This document shows positions 8,056 to 60,870 of a stretch of 64,000 nt of DNA, piece after piece. The stretch is taken from the NCBI GenBank assembly GCA_963978545.1, contig OZ021726.1, positions 34,322,959-34,386,958 of the forward strand. Direction: 5' to 3'. Within the stretch, counting starts at the first letter, position 1, and each line of letters opens with the position of its first letter. This DNA comes from Linyphia triangularis (lineage: Eukaryota; Arthropoda; Arachnida; Araneae; Linyphiidae). The notes below the pieces were generated by a model. The model was given only the letters and a program-made list of their open reading frames with translations, was not told where the DNA came from and did not search any database. A program made the position numbers and the translations under genes.

Positions 8056-8095
<40 letters not shown>
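8056..8095. repeat. (TA)n microsatellite adjoining the transposon
   Basis: About 20 TA repeats ending exactly where the left TIR of the long-TIR element begins. Because of this tract the target-site duplication of the element cannot be sized with certainty. Confidence 0.95.
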
Positions 8096-8098
<3 letters not shown>

Positions 8099-8425
8099 GG
8101 CGTATCGAAAAAAATCGAAATTTATCAAATCTCTTAGCGGTAGTGCGGAAAATTTGTGGACACTCATCAGTAATAAGTGTGTGAAATTTAAAAACTCTGG
8201 GTTAATATCTTCTGTAGCCTCAATGGCCCCAAAGTTCCGAAAATTGGGCTAAAAGTGTTTAAAATTAAAAAATTCCTAAAAATTCCCATATTTCGTTTAA
8301 CGATTGGGGGTGGTGGTTAATTAGTATTGTTTAACAACAACAACTATAATTTTTAAAAAAATTATAGGTTAATATCTTCTGTCGTCTCAGTGAACCGGAA
8401 ATTCCGAAAATTTTAATAAAAGGAA
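8096..8425 (+). repeat. Left terminal inverted repeat
   Basis: Pairs with 10736-11060. Contains two direct copies of a ~45-bp motif beginning GTTAATATCTTCTGT, at 8201-8247 and 8368-8412, and a small palindrome (CTATAAT...ATTATAG) near 8343-8366. Confidence 0.88.
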
Positions 8426-8499
8426 TACAATTCAATATTTAATCAGCAGTCGCAGATTTCGTTGATCGTTTTGAGGTAGCGCACCGAAGGATTTTTCAC

Positions 8500-10632
8500 G
8501 CATACTGCCAACTCATGAAGACGTCATAAGATGTTGCGCTCATGAGAGGTGGCGTATTGGTAATGAAACTGATGAAAATAAAGAACCATACTTCTCTGTT
8601 ATTGCAGAAACTGTTGCTTTGAAAATTGAAAGTTTATACGTCGATTCATCCATTCCTTCTGTTTCACATAAGCGTGTTTGTGATATGATACACGCTTACC
8701 ATAAAAAATATCGTTCAATCATGAAAAATATAAAACGTGTTGGAAGAAGCAAGACTGCTCTTGAAAATGTTGAGAACTTTAAAACTGAAGCAAAGAAACT
8801 ATTCGACATATCTTCCTGTAAATGCACTATTTTTAAGGAGTGTATCTGTCCAAAAGAGAGCAAAGTTCCGCCAAATGAGCAGGCGTTCCTCAAACTCCAA
8901 AGAACGGAAAGAAAAATGTTCATTGGAAGTGTTGATGTACCCAAAACAAAACGACTTCAGTAACGTCAAATGCGAGTACAACAAAATGCTGTGCAAAGTA
9001 AAAAAAAGGCGTCTCCTGCTTCTGTTTCAAGATTTATTCTGGAAAATGAAGATATGATGGAGGTGGAGGCGGAGGTGGATACCAAAGACGCGCCCTACAC
9101 ACCGTTTCTTCAGCAGGATTCAAGGAGTCTTCAGATGCTGGTAAAATTGGACAACACAATTATTTCAGTCATAGATATGGTGTTTCTAACAGAGCCACGG
9201 CTGCTATTGCATTGAGTGTTATGAAAGAATTGAGTTTAATATCGGAATCGAATTCCAGTCTCGCCACCGACAAAAACAAAGTATGGAGGGAAAAATCAAG
9301 AGTTTACAAGCAAATGGTATCAAAATTAAATGAAAATTGTTCCAATCTATCTGGCCTATATTTTGATGGTCGGCATGACAAAACTTTAACATCAGAAACA
9401 CTCGAGGGAAATCAGTTCCGAACAACAATTGTAGAAGCGCATTACTCTATTGTATCGGAGCCTGGTTCTTCGTATGTGGGCATGTTGCACCTGAAAGTGG
9501 ATGCAGTCTTCATGTATCGAACAGCATTTACGAATACGTAACAAGTACTTTTTTGGATGATTTTAGCAAGCTCACAATTGCCGGGTGTGACGGCACTGTG
9601 GTGAACACAGGAATGTTTACTGGTGTAATTCGCATGCTTGAAATGAAATTCAGAGACCCCTCCAATGGATTGTCTGCTTACTTCATTATAATGAGTTACC
9701 ATTACGACACTTATTCCAGTCAATAGAAGGCAAGTCTTCTGGCCCTTCATCTTACACTGGAGATATTGGATGAAAACTTAAAGGATGTGAAAAACTTTCA
9801 GTCGTTGCTTTTAATAATATTAAATGCGAGTTACCACACATTGATAGTAGATTACTCAGTTCAGATCAGAAATACTTATTCGACATTTGCTCTGCCATTA
9901 GTTAGTTTAGAACTAGCTAACCGAGAACCAGGAACGTTGAATTTGGCCCGCTGGCTAACAACTGCAAATCGAATACTGAGGTTATATATATCTACATCAG
10001 ACCCATCAAATGAGCGACTAACTTTAGTTGAATTCATTCTAAGAGCCTACGCACCTTCATGGTTCTGAATTAAGATTAATCACTCCATAAAAGACGGTCC
10101 TAGACATCTGTGGCATTTCATAAGCTCATCTCGGTACTTGCCTAAGAAGTATTGTGACTTAATCGATCCAGTTATTTCTCGAAACGCTTATTTTGCTGCT
10201 CCAGAATACATGCTTTTGGCCATGTTAACTGATGAAAGATGTCATATCAGAATCATTGAAGCTTGAAGAATAATAAAGGCAAGAGAAATTAGCCGAGGTG
10301 TGCGCAGATTTGTTATTTCTGATTTCAATTTTGAAGCTGAAGACTACATTGATATCATTGACTGGAAAAATCGTTTTGTGAGATCGCCGTCAGTTCTCAG
10401 AGAGATAAGTTCTCAAGATTTTTTGAAAATGACAGAGGACGGTATGCATTAGGCCTATTGGCACTTCATACAATTTCCTTCACATACACAAGCAGTCGAG
10501 CGAATTGTGAAACTTGTCCCGGTAGCCTCCGAGAAAACAGTTGGGCCTGAAAACAGGGATAAATTCATAAGAGCTACTCTAGAATCCAGAAAACACATGT
10601 CGAAATTCGAGACAAAAAAGGATTACAAGTAG
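8500..10632 (+). pseudogene. Decayed transposase of the long-TIR element
   Basis: Several open frames (8619-8963, 8970-9215, 9212-9541, 9766-10068) and the unframed stretches between them read as one protein broken by stops and frame changes. The coding signal extends upstream to about 8510 in the same frame as 8619, and ends at a TAG at 10630-10632. Visible blocks in order: C-x-C-x5-C-x-C (CKCTIFKECIC) near 8815-8850; R-K-M-F-I-G-S-V-D; Y-F-D-G-R near 9360; V-S-E-P-G-S-S-Y; A-G-C-D-G-T-V-V-N-T-G near 9580; R-W-L-T-T-A-N-R-I-L-R-L-Y near 9950; H-L-W-H-F-I-S near 10110; and F-P-S-H-T-Q-A-V-E-R near 10470. I recall these blocks from uncharacterised invertebrate proteins. The two Asp blocks (FDGR and CDGT) could be the first catalytic residues of an RNase H-like transposase; that is inference. 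The long TIRs on either side support a transposase role. Confidence 0.75.
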
Positions 10633-10735
10633 TAATGCTATCGTCAATTGTATATTTGAAAGGCAATAAAACTTCTGATCCCTTTAAAATGAGGAAAGTG
10701 TGACGTGTATTTTTTTTTTTTTTTTTTTAAATTTA

Positions 10736-11060
10736 GCCTTTTATTTTCCAAAATTTGGTGTTGCTGAGATAGCAGAAGATATTAACCTATAATTATAAAA
10801 AAAAATTATAGTTGTTGTTGTCAAAAATAGTAACTAGTAAGCACCATCCTTAAACTTACAGCGAAATCTGGAATTTTTTATGAATTTTTGAATTTTATTC
10901 ACTTTTAGCCCAAATTTTGGAACTTTCAAGCTATTGAGGCGACAGAAGATATTAACAAAGAATTTAAAAATTTCACTCGAGTATTAATGATGGGTGTCCG
11001 CAAATTTTCCGCACTACCGCTAAAATATTTGAAAAATTTTGATTTTTTCGATACGCCCTA
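10736..11060 (-). repeat. Right terminal inverted repeat
   Basis: Inverted partner of 8096-8425. Holds the mirrored pair of internal motif copies at about 10747-10786 and 10906-10956. Confidence 0.88.
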
Positions 11061-11497
11061 ATATGTATGTATATATAATTTTATATAAATTTATTGAGTA
11101 TCATTGTAACCAGGCAAATTCCCTTCAAAATACCCAATCTTAACAATGTTTTTAAAACTAGCCTTCAACCATCCTTGACGTCACGCACTTGTTTTTTATT
11201 ATCCTTTTTCCAACTCAAAATTCTTCTCGGCTTCTTTTGGCAACAATGCTTATTACAAATTTTTCTAATAAAATTACAAAAGCGTAATTTGAATCTGAAG
11301 ATTTTTTCAGCTTCCTGCATTTTGATTCGTAAGTGTTTAGCATTTTTCTTGTATTTTCTTCTTTCTTTCTTCTCTTGAGCTTTTGGGGTTGGGACATTCG
11401 AAAACGCACATTATTACTCGTCCTTGCATCATACTGTTAGAGTTCCCTGCACCCTTATCCATGTAGCACAGCGGTATTGGCCAATGTCGGAAACAAA

Positions 11498-23924: not shown

Positions 23925-25092
23925 TTGAGTTTAATATGTACGAAGTCTTTAGTCACTCGTCTAAATCAACTGCCGCTTATTTAAAAAGAAAGAATCAGAA
24001 ATCAAGTGTATCCCATTTAATGAAATACTTATAAAATCTCCTGATGCTTCTCCAATGGACTCTCGACCATTCGTTTTATTAAAACGAGCTTAATGTGGAC
24101 TAAGCCTTCAGTCACATTTCTAAATCAAATGCTGCTTATTTATAAAGAAAGAATAAGAAACAAGAGTAAAGTGTATCTCATTTAATGAAATACCTGTAAA
24201 ATCCCCTGACGCTTCTCCAATGGACTTTCGACCATTCGTTTTATTAAAACGAGCTTAATATGGACTAAGCCTTCAGTCACATCTTTAAATCAACTGCTAC
24301 TTATTTATAAAGAAAAATAAGAAACAGGAATAAAGTGTATCCCATTTAATGAAATACCTGTAAAATCACTTGACGCTTCTCCAATTCACTTTCGACCATT
24401 CGTTTTATTAAAACGAGCTTAATATGGAGACTAAACCTTCAGTCACATCTCTAAATCAACTTCTACTTTTTTATAAAGAAAGAATAAGAAACAGGAATAA
24501 AGTGTATCCCATTTTAATAAATACCTATAAAATCACCTGACGCTTCTCCAATGGACTTTCGCCCATTCTTTTTATTAAAACGAGCTTAATATGGACTAAG
24601 CCTTCAGTCACATCTCTAAATCAACTGCTACTTATTTATAAAGAAAAATAAGAAACAGGAATAAAGTGTATCCCATTTAACCATTTAATGAAATACCTGT
24701 AAAATCACTTGACGCTTCTCCAATTCACTTTCGACCATTCGTTTTATTAAAACGAGCTTAATATGGATTAAGCCTTCAGTCACATTTCTAAATAAACTGC
24801 TGCTTATTTATAAAGAAAGAATAAGAAACAGGAATAAAGTGTATCCCATTTAATGAAATACCTGTAAAATCACCTGACGCTTCTCCAATGGACTTTCGCC
24901 CATTCGTTTTATTAAAACGAGCTTAATATGGATTAAGCCTTCAGTCATATCTCTAAATAAACTGCTGCTTATTTACAAAGAAAGAATAAGAAACAAGAAT
25001 AAAGTGTATCTCATTTAATGAAATACCTGTAAAATCAACTTATGCTTTCCAATAGACTTTAGTCTTTTCGGTTTATTAAAATGAGTCTTACG
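23925..25092 (+). repeat. ~165-bp satellite array, seven units
   Basis: The anchor AAAACGAGCTTAAT recurs at 24081, 24246, 24410, 24577, 24749 and 24914, with a degenerate one at 25078, giving periods of 165, 164, 167, 172, 165 and 164. Each unit contains TAAGCCTTCAGTCACAT, ATAAAGTGTATCCCATTTAA and CTTCTCCAATGGACTTTCG. One unit has an 8-bp internal duplication (CCATTTAA twice, near 24671-24688), which explains the 172 period. The first and last units are the most diverged, as expected at array edges. Confidence 0.97.
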
Positions 25093-28445: not shown

Positions 28446-28479
28446 TACAGCATTTTGAATGAATATAACAGTATTTCAA

Positions 28480-28736
<257 letters not shown>

Positions 28737-39118: not shown

Positions 39119-40124
39119 TCAGTTTTTCCTTCAATAACTTCTTAGTGGAGCAGCATAAACATATGACTCAGTCGCAAATTGAAATGCTAAGTGTACAGTG
39201 AGGATATGTACAAAAGAATGGAGTACCATTAATGTGCAGTTGTACATATGCATCCATATTAAAAATCATGCAACTCAAGGAGTTGACCTCTTGTGTGACA
39301 TATGATCTCCACTGACATCAGTGCTTACTAGACACTGTATTCTGATAATTAACTGAGTTTCTTGATGAATTCTAGGGGCTAAGTTGCTCGTCTAACCTTT
39401 TGAACTGTTTGCAAGTGATGAAAAGTTCCCAATACATTAAATCTTTACACAATGGGTATCGTAGAAGCGTTCCACTCATTTTTGATGACATTTGGATTAG
39501 AGGAATGATCTGGCTTATGTATAGAGGCGATATTCATATTTTTAATCATTTATCCAAAGCAAAAGTGGGATAAAATATGCCACAAGCATCAATAAACACG
39601 ATTTAGAAACTTATTCCTCATCATTAAAGATTTGTCTAGATCAGGTTAACGTAATTACGGTAAAAAAGTCAAATTTAATTTTCTTTTGCGCACCTGGGGA
39701 GCTTAATAAAGCAATCGAAAGTATTGCATCAAAAGATCAAAACTTTTTTCCCGCCAAATCGTTATCTTGAATTGGCATGTACCACGTAATATCATATTCC
39801 CATCTTTCTACAGATCCTTCTGACGTCTATTATTATTCACGAGATTGAAATTATTATTTTCAGTAAAAAGTATTTGATGTTAAAATGTTTTAGTCTTGGA
39901 GGAAAATTGTTGGATTATTTTATTAAGTTACCCAGGAGAGAAAAAGGTAATTAAATTTGACTTTTATTACTGTAATTATGTTAACTTGATCTAGACAAGT
40001 TTTTAATGGTGAAATATCAGTTTTTAAATCATGTTTATTGATAATTCTGGCACATTTTGTCTCTTTGTTGTGAATTTCATGTGTTTATGCTGCTCCACTG
40101 AGAAGTTATAAATGGAAAAACATG
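39119..40124. mobile_element. Fold-back element with split left arm (~1 kb)
   Basis: The outer ends are inverted repeats. TTCTTAGTGGAGCAGCATAA near 39139-39158 matches TTCTCAGTGGAGCAGCATAA on the minus strand near 40087-40106, and similarity runs about 45 bp. A second inverted block pairs 39577-39725 with about 39915-40055; it shares CTTGTCTAGATCA(A/G)GTTAAC and GTCAAATTTAATT in inverted orientation. On the right the two blocks are contiguous. On the left they are separated by ~400 bp that includes Tc1-like sequence. So the original element had ~220-bp inverted arms around a ~190-bp centre. Superfamily is unknown; no clear target duplication. Confidence 0.75.
39194..39560 (-). pseudogene. Tc1-like transposase 3' fragment inserted in the fold-back arm
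   Basis: On the minus strand the translation near 39480-39530 gives P-D-H-S-S-N-P-N-V-I-K-N-E-W, resembling the S-P-D-L-N-P-I-E-x-x-W block around the catalytic glutamate of Tc1-family transposases. A second frame near 39290-39370 resembles the C-terminal tail. The frame is broken by stops and shifts. The distal edge reads CAGTGAGGATATGTACAAAA from 39196, next to a TA (39194-39195), as expected for a Tc1/mariner end. Only the 3' part is present. The family call is motif-based inference. Confidence 0.45.
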
Positions 40125-43000: not shown

Positions 43001-44402
43001 GATGTGAGAATCAGATTTTAACTGGAAACATATCCAGAAGTCAATTACTAACTCGTACAAAAGAAAATAATAAATGCTAAGACAAACTGTAGGTTTCGGT
43101 AAAAGTCATTATGCTTACATAAAATAAACTGGAAGGGAGTATTTTATTCCCACACCCCTCACTTGAAGTATTTCGTGTTGTGTTTTTTATACGATTACTA
43201 TGAGGACATCGTAAGAAAATTATAAAATGTATCAATGACCTAATAAAATCGATTGCCACTGAGTTACTCCTCGATTTCTTTTAATTTTTGATTGGTTAAA
43301 CATTTTAGGTAGTAAATCATAGAACAGTAAAAAAAAAATTTAGTAAGTGATGAGATTTTGTTTGAGCACATCCTGAAAAAACAGGATAGAAAATATTAAT
43401 AATATAAAAAAAATATTCATGCTAGATGATAAAATAAATATAACTTCAAACCTATTATAAGTGAAGCGAGTTTCAAAGGTTTGAGATTTTTGCATTTATC
43501 ATTGTACATCATCTAGTTTCAATGCTTTTTTGCGTGAAATATTTTGAACAAATTTAAAATTCGATTGATTCACTGATAAATAATTTATTTGTTATTTTTA
43601 TAACAAATTACAAACCTAGAACTCAAAAAACAATATTAACTACTAGTTAATTTAAATTCAATTGGTCAATTATCTATTCCACAATTAAAATATATTAACC
43701 TTATCTTCACAAGCATCCAGGTGAATGGTTGTAAGTTCAACCTCTGTATCACAACCCCAACCCTAAACACCCCTAGGATCCCTACCAAAGAGTTGCTTTG
43801 TTATGAATGAAAAAGAAAAGCCTTGCAATTGTAAATAATTTCAGAAGAATAATTTGTTTAATTAACTATCAATCAGATTACTATTTTGCACTAAAGTAGC
43901 ACACAGGTCGAAGAACATTGAAATAAATAATGAATGCGTAAATCTCAAAGCACCAAAAAATTGTTCAAAAATAATTTTGATCTAAATAAACTATCATTTA
44001 AAAAATATAAAAATATACACGTTTTCGTTTTTACTAAATGTTGTTATAATGTTTCAAGAGCAATAATTATCTAATAAAATCAGTCTGATAATAGAGTTTA
44101 CCTCTTCGCCAAAAAATATTACTTTCTTCTAATTGAATTTAAGTGAACAACAAAAATTAAAATTTATTTTTAACCTTCAAAATAAAAAATAAAAAATTTC
44201 ATAAACTTTATATGGAGTCCCATGTTGAGATATTTTTTTTAACTCAAAAACTGATCAAAAATCATTAAAATATTTTGGCACCCTTTGGTCAATTTTAAAG
44301 AAACTACGAAAAAAGAAATCATAGAAGTGTGGTGTGAAAAAGTTCTGCATAGAGTTATTTTTGCTTAGAAATACAATAGCAAAGTTAGAGCTTCATTGAA
44401 AA
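43001..44402. other. Unassigned AT-rich sequence
   Basis: No gene seen. A box B-like AAGTTCAACCTC near 43731 could be an eroded SINE head, but no box A supports it. Confidence 0.5.
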
Positions 44403-44960
44403 CCATTTCGTACAAATTCTCTGGTTACGTCCTAGATTCCATCCCCCTACTTCTATATTTTATACAAGATACATAACCCGACCATACCTAGTCAGAAATT
44501 GAATAGTCTACCTCTAAACTAATCATAATTCTCCTATAAAACCTGCGTTTCACATCCCACCATTTCAATGCTGCCCTATCTCATAACATCCCATTTCTCC
44601 GAGCACCATTTCGTACAAATTCCCTGGTTACGTCCTAGATTCCATCCCCGACTTCTATCTTTCATACAAGATACATAACCCGACCATACCTAATCAGAAA
44701 TTGAATAGTCTACCTCTAAACTAATCATAATTCTCCTACAAAACCTGCGTTTCACATCCCACCATTTCAATGCTGCCCTATCTCATAACATCCCATCTCT
44801 CCGAGCACCATTTCGTACAAATTCCCTGGTTACGTCCTAGATTCCATCCCCTACTTCTATCTTTCATACAAGATACATAACCAGGGGTGTAGTGGAGCGG
44901 GAACGCGTGGGAACGGCGATCCTTTACCTTTTTAGAAGGCGGAACGGCGTTCCCTCACCT

Positions 44961-48618: not shown

Positions 48619-50188
48619 TCCATAATAATAAAACAAGCTGTGTGTCTGTCTGTGGCTCTGTGGAACTATAGAGACCTACTTAAAATTGGAGTAGAGTTGT
48701 GAAATTTTCAACAGAAGAAGTTTTGGCTATCTAATTTTATGCATGTCAAACAGAATGTTAAAATTTTTATTAGTTCTTTTTTAACTAATTTTTTTAATTA
48801 TTTTTTTTAATTAATTTTTTTAATTAATTTATTTTTTACAAAGTGACTTTAAATAGAGATGCACCTCTGAAATTTTCAACATAAGTAGTTTTAACCTTCT
48901 AATTGGACTTTCGAAAAACAGAATGTTAAAATTTTGATTAGTTATTTTTTAATTAATTTTCTTAATTGATTAAGATTTTTTTTTACAAAACGACTTCAAA
49001 TAGGGCTACTGTTCTGAAATTTTCAACATAAGTAGTTTTGGCTTTCTAATTAGTCTTTTAAAACACAGAATTTTAAATTTTTATTTAGTTCTTTCTTAAT
49101 TCATTTTTTTTAATTAATTAATAAATATTTTACAAAACGATTTCTAATAGGGCTACAGCTCTTAAAATTTCAACAAAAGTAGTTTTAACCTTTTAATTGG
49201 GTTTTTGAAAAACAGAATTTCAAATTTTTATTTAGTTCCTTTTTAATTAATTTTGTTAATTAATTAATATAAATTTTTCAAAACGATTTCTAATAGGGCT
49301 ACAGCTCTGAAATTTTCAACATAAGTAGCTTTGGCCTTCTAATTGGAGACTTTTGAAAAACAGAATTTTAAATTTTTATTTAGTTCCTTTTTAATTAATT
49401 AATATACATTTTACAAAACGATTTCTAATAGGGCTACAGCTCTGAAATTTTCAACATAAGTAGTTTTAACCTACTAATTGGACTTTTGAAAAACAGAATG
49501 TTAAAATTTTATTTGTTTTTTAATTAATTAATTAATTAACAAATATTTTACAAAACGATTTCTAACTGGGCTACATTTCTGAAATTTTCAAAACAAATAG
49601 TTTTGGCCTTCTAATTGGACTTTTAACAAAAACAACGTTGAAATTTTGATTGGTTTTTTAATGAATTTTTAATTAATATTTCCTCAAAAAGCGACTTCTA
49701 ATAGGTCTAGAGCTCAGAAAGTTTCAACATAAGTAATTTTGCCCTTTTAATTTTGCTTTTTACAAACATCACGTGTTAAAATATTCTTAAAGGGATGTCT
49801 TATAATAGTTATTAACGGGGATTTTTTTTTATTGTTTCTCGACAAGTGAGGGGCTTTTAATACTGAGGCTTTACGTAGCAATTAGTTTTTAGTGTGTGAA
49901 GCGACCTTATTCTTAACCAGCAATGAACCTGTCATCGAGCAAAGCGAGCTTATGTTTGCATAGAAATGAACCTTTCAACGAGTTAAGTAAACCTGTGCTT
50001 ATGTGTCAATGACTTTTTCAGCGAGCGAAGCGAGCTCGATTTAGCGTTGCGATGAACCGTCCTGCGAGCGAAGAGCCAAAAATTGGGGTCTATACATCAA
50101 TGACGGATTTCGACAACGCGAGGCTTGTCAGCTGGCTAAAATATTTTACATGACAAAATTTCGTGGTGAAGCACGGGTATTCAGCTAG
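48619..50188 (+). mobile_element. Helitron-like non-autonomous element 1 (1570 bp)
   Basis: Begins TCCATAATAATAAAACAAGC directly after an A and ends ...CAGCTAG at 50188. About 10 nt before the terminal CTAG lies a short GC-rich hairpin (CGTG 50162-50165 pairing with CACG 50172-50175). A 5' TC, a 3' CTRR end, a subterminal hairpin, no TIRs and insertion between A and T are the hallmarks of Helitrons. The interior is a ~140-bp minisatellite of about eight units (anchor TTTTCAACATAAGTAG), followed by ~55-bp units containing GCGAGCGAAGCGAGC-type words. There is no Rep/helicase gene, so it would depend on other elements. Confidence 0.75.
48690..49760 (+). repeat. ~140-bp minisatellite inside Helitron-like element 1
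   Basis: The anchor TTTTCAACATAAGTAGTTTT recurs near 48708, 48875, 49018, 49166, 49312, 49447, 49577 and 49717. Units also share GGGCTACAGCTCTGAAAT and TTAATTAATTTTTTTAATTA. Confidence 0.9.
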
Positions 50189-51346
50189 TCAATAATAGTA
50201 AAACAAGCTGTATATGTGTCTGAATCTGTGGTTCTGGGAATCTATAAAAAGCTGCTACTTAAAATAGGCGTTGGGTTCTGAAATTTTTAACATAAGTAGT
50301 TTTGTCTTTTTAATTGTACTTTTGACAAAGAGAAGGTTAAATTTTTATTAGTTCTTTTTTAATTAATTTTTTTATTTAAATTTTTTACAAAGTGACTTTA
50401 AATACAGCTCTGAAATTTAAAACATAAGTAGTTTTAGTTTTCTAATTGGATTTTTGAAAAACAGAATGTTACTATTCTAGTTAGTTATTTTTAATTAATT
50501 TTTTTAATTAATTACAAAGAAATTACAAAATGACTTCTAATAGGCTACAGCTCTGAAATTTTCAACATAAATAGTTTTGGCTTTCTAATTGGACTTCGAA
50601 AAAATATAATGTTAAAATTTTGATAAGTTTTTCATATTAATTTTTTTAATTAATTAACAAAAATTTTACAAAACGATTTTTAATAGGACAACAGCTCTGA
50701 AATTTTCAACATAAGTAGTTTTGCCTCCTATTTAGACTTTAAAAAAATAAAAAAAAACGAATTTTTAAATTTTGATTAGGCGTTTTAATTAATTTTTGTT
50801 AATTAACTAACAAATACTACAAAAATATTTCTAATAGGGCTACAGTTCTGAAAATTTCAGCATAAGTAGTTTTGACCATCAAATTGAACTTTTGACAAAC
50901 AGAATGTTAAAATTTTAATTTGTTTTTTAATTAATATTTTCGTATAAGTAGTTTTGGCCTTCTAATTTTACTTTTTACAAACACATGCTAAAATATTCTC
51001 AAAATGGAGTTGTATTATTGTTTTAAAGGGGAAAATTATTTTGTTTCTTTGCAAGGGAGCAGGTTTGAATATTTAGGGTTTCCATAATAATAAATTTTTA
51101 GTGAGTCATGCGAGCTTATGCTTTCGCAGCAATAAACCTTTCAGAGAGAGAGAAGCGATCCCATGCTTGCATAAAAATGAACCTTTCAATGAGTAAATTA
51201 AGCTTGTGCTTTTGTGTCAATGAACTTGTCATCGAGTGAAGCGAGCTTTGTTTTGTGTAGCAATGAACCTTCCTGCGAGCGAAGTACCTAAAGCTGAGGT
51301 CTATGCATCAACGACGAGTCTCGGCAACGTGGGGCCACGCAGCTAG
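50189..51346 (+). mobile_element. Helitron-like non-autonomous element 2 (1158 bp), abutting element 1
   Basis: Begins TCAATAATAGTAAAACAAGC immediately after the CTAG of element 1 and ends ACGCAGCTAG at 51346, followed by T. A hairpin (CGTG 51328-51331 with CACG 51336-51339) precedes the end. It has the same architecture: about six ~140-bp units, then four ~55-bp units with GCGAGCGAAG words. It is shorter because it has fewer internal repeats. The precise head-to-tail junction with the first copy is strong evidence for the element boundaries. Confidence 0.75.
50270..51000 (+). repeat. ~140-bp minisatellite inside Helitron-like element 2
   Basis: About six units with the same anchor as in element 1, near 50283, 50417, 50559, 50702, 50855 and 50943; the last is truncated. 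Confidence 0.88.
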
Positions 51347-58819: not shown

Positions 58820-60870
58820 TCAGACCATTAAAATTTCCAGAAAAATGAAAACTCTGATACCTCCACCTTTATTACAACATTTTTGTCTTAATGCTTTTAA
58901 ACTATCAATAATCTAACTTCTATTCCTTACCTCCAAAGGGCTCTTGGTTTGGTTTTAATATTTAAGAAGAAGATCAGAAATATATCAAAGTGAACCATTT
59001 CTTTTCATTATTGAACAAATATTCTAAAGTCATAATTCCTGCGATTGATTGAACATTCTAATCTACTATTCTAATAAACTGGTTAACGTTATGATAAAAC
59101 TTCAAAACTAGTAAGACATTTTTTTGTAACCATCCCCACTTGATTGAATGACTATTTTGTAAGTTAAGAACTTTGAATAACATTGCCGACTATTTGAAAT
59201 AACTTCTCAATTGAGGTATAAAAACCTTTGCAGACATTTTAGAACTTCCAAGAAAATAAAATCTCTTCTTTTAAATCTTAATTCTTTCATTTAAAACTAT
59301 CAAAGCGTAGTTTAAAACATTAAAAGACTGTTGGTTTTAGTGATAAAGGACATCTCAAGATTAGAAAAGTTGTCAAAGAAATGTTTTCATACATCGCTGA
59401 TCTACTATTTTGAAGTCATTAAACTTGCTATCGAATACACTCGTTCACTGCAAGAAATGACTTCACAAATGAACTACATTTGCCAAACAATTAAGAACTT
59501 CCATGAAACTAAAAACTCACATTTCATAACTCCGTCATTTGTTTCTTTTAACTACCGAAAACATAATTCTAAACGCCAAATGGTTGTTTATTTTTGTGAT
59601 ATGGGAGAAGATTTGAAGAGTGGTTAAGAAACCATATCCAATCATTTTTATCTACCACTTTGAAATCATTAATCTTTCAATCGATTGTCCACTGTTAGAA
59701 ACGACATCTTAACTGAGTGCTAAAAAAATTCTTTTCAAACAATTAAGAACTTCCAGGTAAATGAAAATTCTACTTTCACAACTCCTTCATTATTTTCTTT
59801 TAACTATCAAAAATCTAATTCAAAACACCAAAATTGCTATTTCTTTTTTAGTGTTGGGGAGGAAAAAGAGTAATCATAGAACCATATTCAATCCTTTTTA
59901 TCTACCACTTTGAAGTGATTAAACTTGCAATTGAATATCATTGTCCACTACTGGAAACGACTGCTCAAACAACTTGCTGCAATCAAACGACTGCTTTTCA
60001 AACAATTAAGAATTTTCAGGTAACTGAAAACTTCACCTTAACAACTTCTTTCATTTCTTTTAACTATCAAAAATCTAATTCAAAACACTAAAAGACTGTT
60101 TGTTTTAGTGTTACGGGAGAAAGAAGAGTAGTCAGAGAACCATATCCAATAATTTTTTAATTAACATTTTGAAATGATTAATCTTGCTATCGAATATCCT
60201 CGTCCACTATTGGAAATGACTGTTCAACTGAGTGCTATAAACCTTCTTTTCAAACAATTAAGAATTTTCAGGTAACTGAAAACTCCACCTTCACAACTTC
60301 TTTCATTTCTTTTAACTATCAAAAATCTTATTCAAAACACTAAAAGACTGTTTGTTTTAGTGTTACGGGAGAAAGAAGAGTAGTCAGAGAAACATATCCA
60401 ATGATTTTTTAATTACCATTTTGAAAGGATTAATCTTGCTATCGAATATCCTCGTCGACTATTGGACATTATTGCTCAACTGAGTGCTAAAAACCTTCTT
60501 TTCAAACAATTAAAAATTTCCAGGTAACTGAAAACTCCACCTTCACGGCTTCTTTCATTTCTTTTAACTATCAAAAATCTTATTCAAACCACTAAAAGAC
60601 GGTTTGTTTTAGTGTTACGGGAGAAAGAAGAGTAGTCAGAGAACAATATCCAATGATTTTTTTATTACCATTTTGAAATGATTAATCTTTGTTATCGGAT
60701 ATCCTCGTCTACTATTGGAAACGACTGCTCAACTGAGTGCTAAAAACCTTTTCAGACCATTAAGAACTTCCAGGAAACTAAAAACTCCTCCTTCACAACA
60801 TCTTCATTCTTTTCTTTTAACCATCTATAATCTAATTCCCCACCCCAAAAAGGCTGTTGGTTTTAGTGAT
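58820..60870 (+). repeat. ~250-bp tandem array, about eight units
   Basis: The anchor CTAAAAGACTGTTTGTTTTAG or a variant recurs near 58934 (degenerate), 59321, 59570, 59830, 60089, 60341, 60593 and 60848. Periods are about 250-260 and exactly 252 in the centre. Units share CAAACAATTAAGAA(C/T)TT, CTGAAAACTCCACCTTCACA and TTTTAACTATCAAAAATCTA. The three units at 60000-60700 are almost identical and the outer ones are strongly diverged. Frames at 59331-59627 and 60715-60957 fall in repeat units and are not conserved between them, so they are not genes. Confidence 0.92.

Follow-up and report, generated by a model that had tools for sequence, protein, structure and literature searches.

What is the 2,965-bp element at positions 8096–11060 of the 64,000-nucleotide stretch of Linyphia triangularis contig OZ021726.1 analysed here (hereafter the window), and is the broken gene between its long inverted arms a transposase? 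A preliminary description of this locus had proposed a ~2.97-kb DNA transposon with ~325-bp arms and a single decayed gene, belonging to an apparently undescribed family not matched to any named transposase superfamily. Our analyses suggest that it is one copy of an invertebrate DNA transposon family that moves by cut-and-paste, encoding a Hermes-like DDE (Asp-Asp-Glu) transposase, a reading to which we assign a probability of about 0.82.

The element starts with TAGGGCGTATCG at 8096 and finishes with CGATACGCCCTA at 11060 (Table 1). Its arms (295 and 297 bases) align at 81.6% identity over 299 columns (E 2e-76), and under a looser local alignment they reach lengths of 328 and 324 bases (84% identity), in agreement with the arm size first proposed. 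They form the longest inverted repeat listed for the window (25 longest of 215 pairs, with arms within 8 kb), and no Rfam match was found anywhere in the window. All of the gene blocks noted previously (CKCTIFKECIC, FDGR, VSEPGSSY, CDGTVVNTG, RWLTTANRILRLY and FPSHTQAVER) are present between the arms, scattered across three frames with in-frame stops among them, as befits a single decayed gene. Full-length copies elsewhere measure ~3.37 kb; the window copy lost ~400 bp after base 8481, and comparison of copies showed that this deletion removed the gene start. With its start deleted and its frames broken, the window copy is dead and now encodes nothing.

To characterise the family, the element was searched against the 1.35-Gb assembly (369 contigs), which gave 941 first-look candidates, and the best 40 were scored and retrieved with their flanks; these are top matches rather than a random sample. 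All 40 were real matches, which sets a lower bound of 40 on a copy number that may be much greater. In 37 copies both ends were located; the left end was absent in the other three, which look truncated; these 40 best loci thus held no clear case of the gene without these terminal inverted repeats (TIRs), the observation that the preliminary description had named as telling against it. Most two-ended copies (26/37) measure 3.33–3.40 kb, and the full-length unit consists of ~300-bp TIRs with internal sub-terminal repeats (direct repeats of ~190 bp at 68–69% identity in two full-length copies) flanking one single-exon gene for a ~740-aa protein. Kimura two-parameter (K2P) distances to the column majority were 0.015–0.034 for 29 copies of 3.2–3.5 kb, a low divergence that indicates fairly recent movement in the host. 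The corresponding values were 0.035 for the window copy and 0.038 for L003, a copy on a different contig with the same ~400-bp loss (pair K2P 0.017). As the 1000-bp flanks of these two share no similarity, the shortened form moved after the deletion, presumably in trans by transposase from other copies. Open reading frames were checked in 20 loci (L002, the window copy, to L021), and only L005 had an open frame, of 743 codons from stop to stop and 740 from the first ATG in one exon. By eye, L005 deviates at two residues otherwise invariant across the family, and for this reason we make no claim that its gene is functional. Three further copies (L035, L038 and L040) are enlarged to 3.6–4.3 kb with both ends and exact 8-bp duplications intact, which suggests later insertions inside the element.

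Target sites were defined by aligning copies, oriented by their gene before scoring, and by testing duplication lengths of 1–14. The left end reads TAGGG in 36 of the 37 placed copies and TAAGG in L005; the terminal pattern of hAT elements is YARNG, to which TAGGG-type ends conform. An exact 8-bp duplication flanks 33 of the 37 copies, and the remaining four, including the window copy and one whose right end is overwritten by an AT tract (L015), have one mismatch. Nine of the 33 exact duplications consist of A and T only and were set aside; among the 24 informative ones, none was longer than 8 bp, and T at position 2 and A at position 7 each occurred in 22. The resulting pattern, nTnnnnAn, is the target pattern printed for Hermes in PMC10368747. 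At the window copy this pattern is hidden by the surrounding AT tract. That tract, together with the TA...TA ends, had also prompted the idea of a TA target duplication, which is excluded by the exact 8-bp duplications outside AT tracts.

With a read-through of the window gene as query, 394 proteins matched at E 1e-3 or better (7,975 candidates). The 120 matches listed are mostly 700–790 aa long and 38–46% identical to the query over near-full length, with two shorter ones (P0001 and P0042) at 65–68%; none carries a precomputed Pfam domain. An organism is named for eight of these 120, all of them insects (two Frankliniella thrips, phylloxera and five moths or butterflies). One thrips member, P0105, bears the database name 'MAU2 chromatid cohesion factor-like protein', which is probably a mis-annotation of a transposase. 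In a family alignment of 117 of the 120 listed proteins (P0001, P0042 and P0094 excluded), the CxCx5CxC cysteines, C408/H411 and R503/W504 (numbering of relative P0056) were each present in 117/117. No Pfam-A model scored above its cut-off when eight window-gene pieces and seven proteins of the family were searched, and matches were seen only below it (e.g., an 83-aa window piece to Integrase_2, E 0.12). Sequence searches against solved structures gave nothing relevant. None of 43 pattern matches on viral contigs was confirmed as a relative; on prokaryote genome contigs one of 54 was (L001), but it is a fragment that abuts the end of a metagenome-assembled contig, is probably contamination and is of no use for TIRs.

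Structure prediction gave an RNase H-like DDE fold with high confidence, in which the aspartates of FDGR and CDGT, already put forward as candidate metal-binding residues together with such a fold, lie at catalytic positions. The predicted core is D305-D379-E687 (P0056), in which a helical insertion containing the invariant RW separates the second Asp from the Glu and CxxH lies beside the active site. The gene sits between TIRs in many independent insertions that bear target-site duplications, and this, together with the predicted fold, argues that the transposase role first proposed is correct. A fold search with the predicted model returned Hermes as the best match (score 16.8 over 341 residues).

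This ranking bears on the alternative superfamilies. Mutator-like elements (MULEs, the Mutator/IS256 type) combine an RNase H DDE core and CxxH, often with long TIRs and 8–9-bp duplications, and the long arms seen here suit a MULE better than a hAT element. We nevertheless consider this assignment improbable, as Hermes scores clearly higher and across more residues than ISCth4, a member of the IS256 family related to Mutator, which has no Pfam link to this family; moreover, no MULE or Transposase_mut model reached E 1 for the window pieces or family proteins, and nTnnnnAn is, as described above, the pattern printed for Hermes. A place within or beside the P or KDZ (Kyakuja-Dileera-Zisupton) superfamilies seems just as improbable. 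Zisupton makes 8-bp duplications and cysteine clusters occur around KDZ transposases, but the P element scored about half as high as Hermes in the fold search, and none of the Pfam models for THAP, the P element and KDZ, the last being the basis of the KDZ comparison, reached E 1 for the seven family proteins. Transib and RAG1 scored within the range that the fold-search tool rates as common, and Transib duplications are 5 bp long, versus 8 bp in this family. That most copies are broken might suit a host or passenger gene on a transposon whose true transposase lies elsewhere, yet this is highly unlikely given that the gene is the sole one in the element, that its predicted model has a DDE transposase fold, and that its named relatives are labelled 'hypothetical' or 'uncharacterized' across many insects without a cellular name (P0105 excepted).

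For the Hermes-like transposase that we favour, a mechanism can be outlined. The helical N-terminal region with its CxCx5CxC cluster would bind the long TIRs, and the protein would, by analogy with Hermes, pair both element ends and cut the element out, probably via hairpins on the flanking DNA. Catalysis would fall to D305, D379 and E687 of the predicted fold, and the excised element would be joined, again as in Hermes, across a staggered 8-bp nTnnnnAn site. The window copy, since its deletion, would be movable only with help from other copies.

Table 1. Features of the window copy of the element and its immediate flanks (window positions).
Feature	Position	Strand	Basis
Left 8-bp target-site duplication ATATATAT, within AT tract	8088–8095		One mismatch versus right flank; 8-bp length set by other copies
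Left TIR, starts TAGGGCGTATCG	8096–8390 (alignable to ~8423)	+	End reading, arm alignments
Left-arm sub-terminal direct repeat (8190–8255 / 8357–8422, 77%, spacing 167)	8190–8422	+	Repeat search
Point at which ~400 bp of the full-length element are missing; L003 shares this internal deletion	8481–8482		Copy comparison
Decayed transposase gene, its start removed by the deletion and its frame shifted near 9116, 9478, 9657 and 9903, with several in-frame stops	8482–10632	+	Translations, protein matches
CxCx5CxC cysteine cluster CKCTIFKECIC, candidate zinc site	8817–8849	+	Four Cys in 117/117 aligned relatives
First predicted catalytic Asp, FDGR (D305 of P0056), on strand b1	9365–9367	+	Alignment and predicted model
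Second predicted catalytic Asp, CDGT (D379 of P0056), just past strand b4	9589–9591	+	Alignment and predicted model
CxxH motif CLLH (C408/H411 of P0056), past strand b5	9675–9686	+	Alignment and predicted model
RW motif (R503/W504 of P0056), helical insertion; positional counterpart of Hermes R318/W319	9949–9954	+	Family alignment
Predicted catalytic Glu, HTQAVER (E687 of P0056), in penultimate long helix	10498–10500	+	Alignment and predicted model
Possible polyadenylation signal AATAAA	10665–10670	+	Read from sequence
Right TIR, finishes CGATACGCCCTA	10764–11060 (alignable from ~10737)	-	End reading, arm alignments
Right-arm counterpart sub-terminal repeat (10773–10800 / 10943–10970, 82%, spacing 170)	10773–10970	-	Repeat search
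Right 8-bp target-site duplication ATATGTAT	11061–11068		Flank comparison

Elsewhere in the window, an inverted repeat at 39560–40070 (128-nt arms, 76% complementarity, 255 nt apart) could be a miniature inverted-repeat transposable element of another family. Satellite-like tandem arrays occur at 23927–25090 (~165-bp unit), 44402–44882 (~202 bp), 48792–50940 (137–147 bp) and 59484–60868 (~252 bp), and a perfect microsatellite, (AAAT)64.5, spans 258 bp at 28479–28736.

As to novelty, among the open-access papers searched no title or abstract opening describes the family and four of its motifs occur in none, which is weak evidence of absence as Repbase, Dfam and subscription papers lay outside the scope of this search. 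As far as Pfam-A and these papers reach, the family appears undescribed, and there is, at a guess, an appreciable minority chance that Repbase or Dfam already holds it. Our results offer a likely identity, function and mechanism for hundreds of 'hypothetical proteins' in insect and metagenome-type records. Since no Pfam model exists for the family, automatic annotation leaves it blank, and genome projects may therefore count this transposase among host genes.

How close the family stands to Hermes of the housefly, to the Ac group and to other members of the hAT superfamily can be judged from both sides. With Hermes it shares a predicted RNase H-like DDE core interrupted by an insertion after the second Asp and before the Glu, the motif order D, D, CxxH, RW and (S/V)ER, and 8-bp duplications of the pattern nTnnnnAn. 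The equivalence of CxxH and RW to Hermes C265/H268 and R318/W319 is based on order, and for CxxH also on a non-significant hhalign alignment that pairs both CxxH and the second Asp with their Hermes counterparts and is not used as evidence; HTQAVER is likewise a positional, not a sequence-score, counterpart of hATC. Several results weigh against a plain hAT label. Profile-profile comparison by hhalign with 42 hAT proteins was not significant and fell inside the range of shuffled controls. Neither hATC (PF05699, at E 1 or better) nor BED and Hermes_DBD matched the eight window pieces and seven family proteins. Unlike Hermes, this family has a four-cysteine cluster that closes a helical N-terminus, and the N-terminal 160 residues, modelled separately (predicted local distance difference test score, pLDDT, 87.8), had no confident fold match. 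The arms of ~300 bp also contrast with the 17-bp TIRs of Hermes (PMC10368747) and fall outside the 10–25 bp given for hAT TIRs in PMC3942097.

The family is not foreign to every named superfamily: its predicted fold, the 8-bp nTnnnnAn duplications, the CxxH and RW motifs and the Glu of (V)ER all point to hAT-like chemistry. Because some of the defining hAT features were looked for without success, we do not file the family as hAT, and we consider it probable that the element works like a hAT element. Tentatively, and with less than even odds, it may represent a separate superfamily, sister of hAT, that kept the hAT-type active site and the 8-bp nTnnnnAn target and swapped BED and hATC for a four-cysteine helical front end reading ~300-bp inverted repeats. 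If that were true, the DDE core, CxxH, RW and the 8-bp nTnnnnAn target would be old, and the BED finger, hATC and short TIRs would be replaceable.
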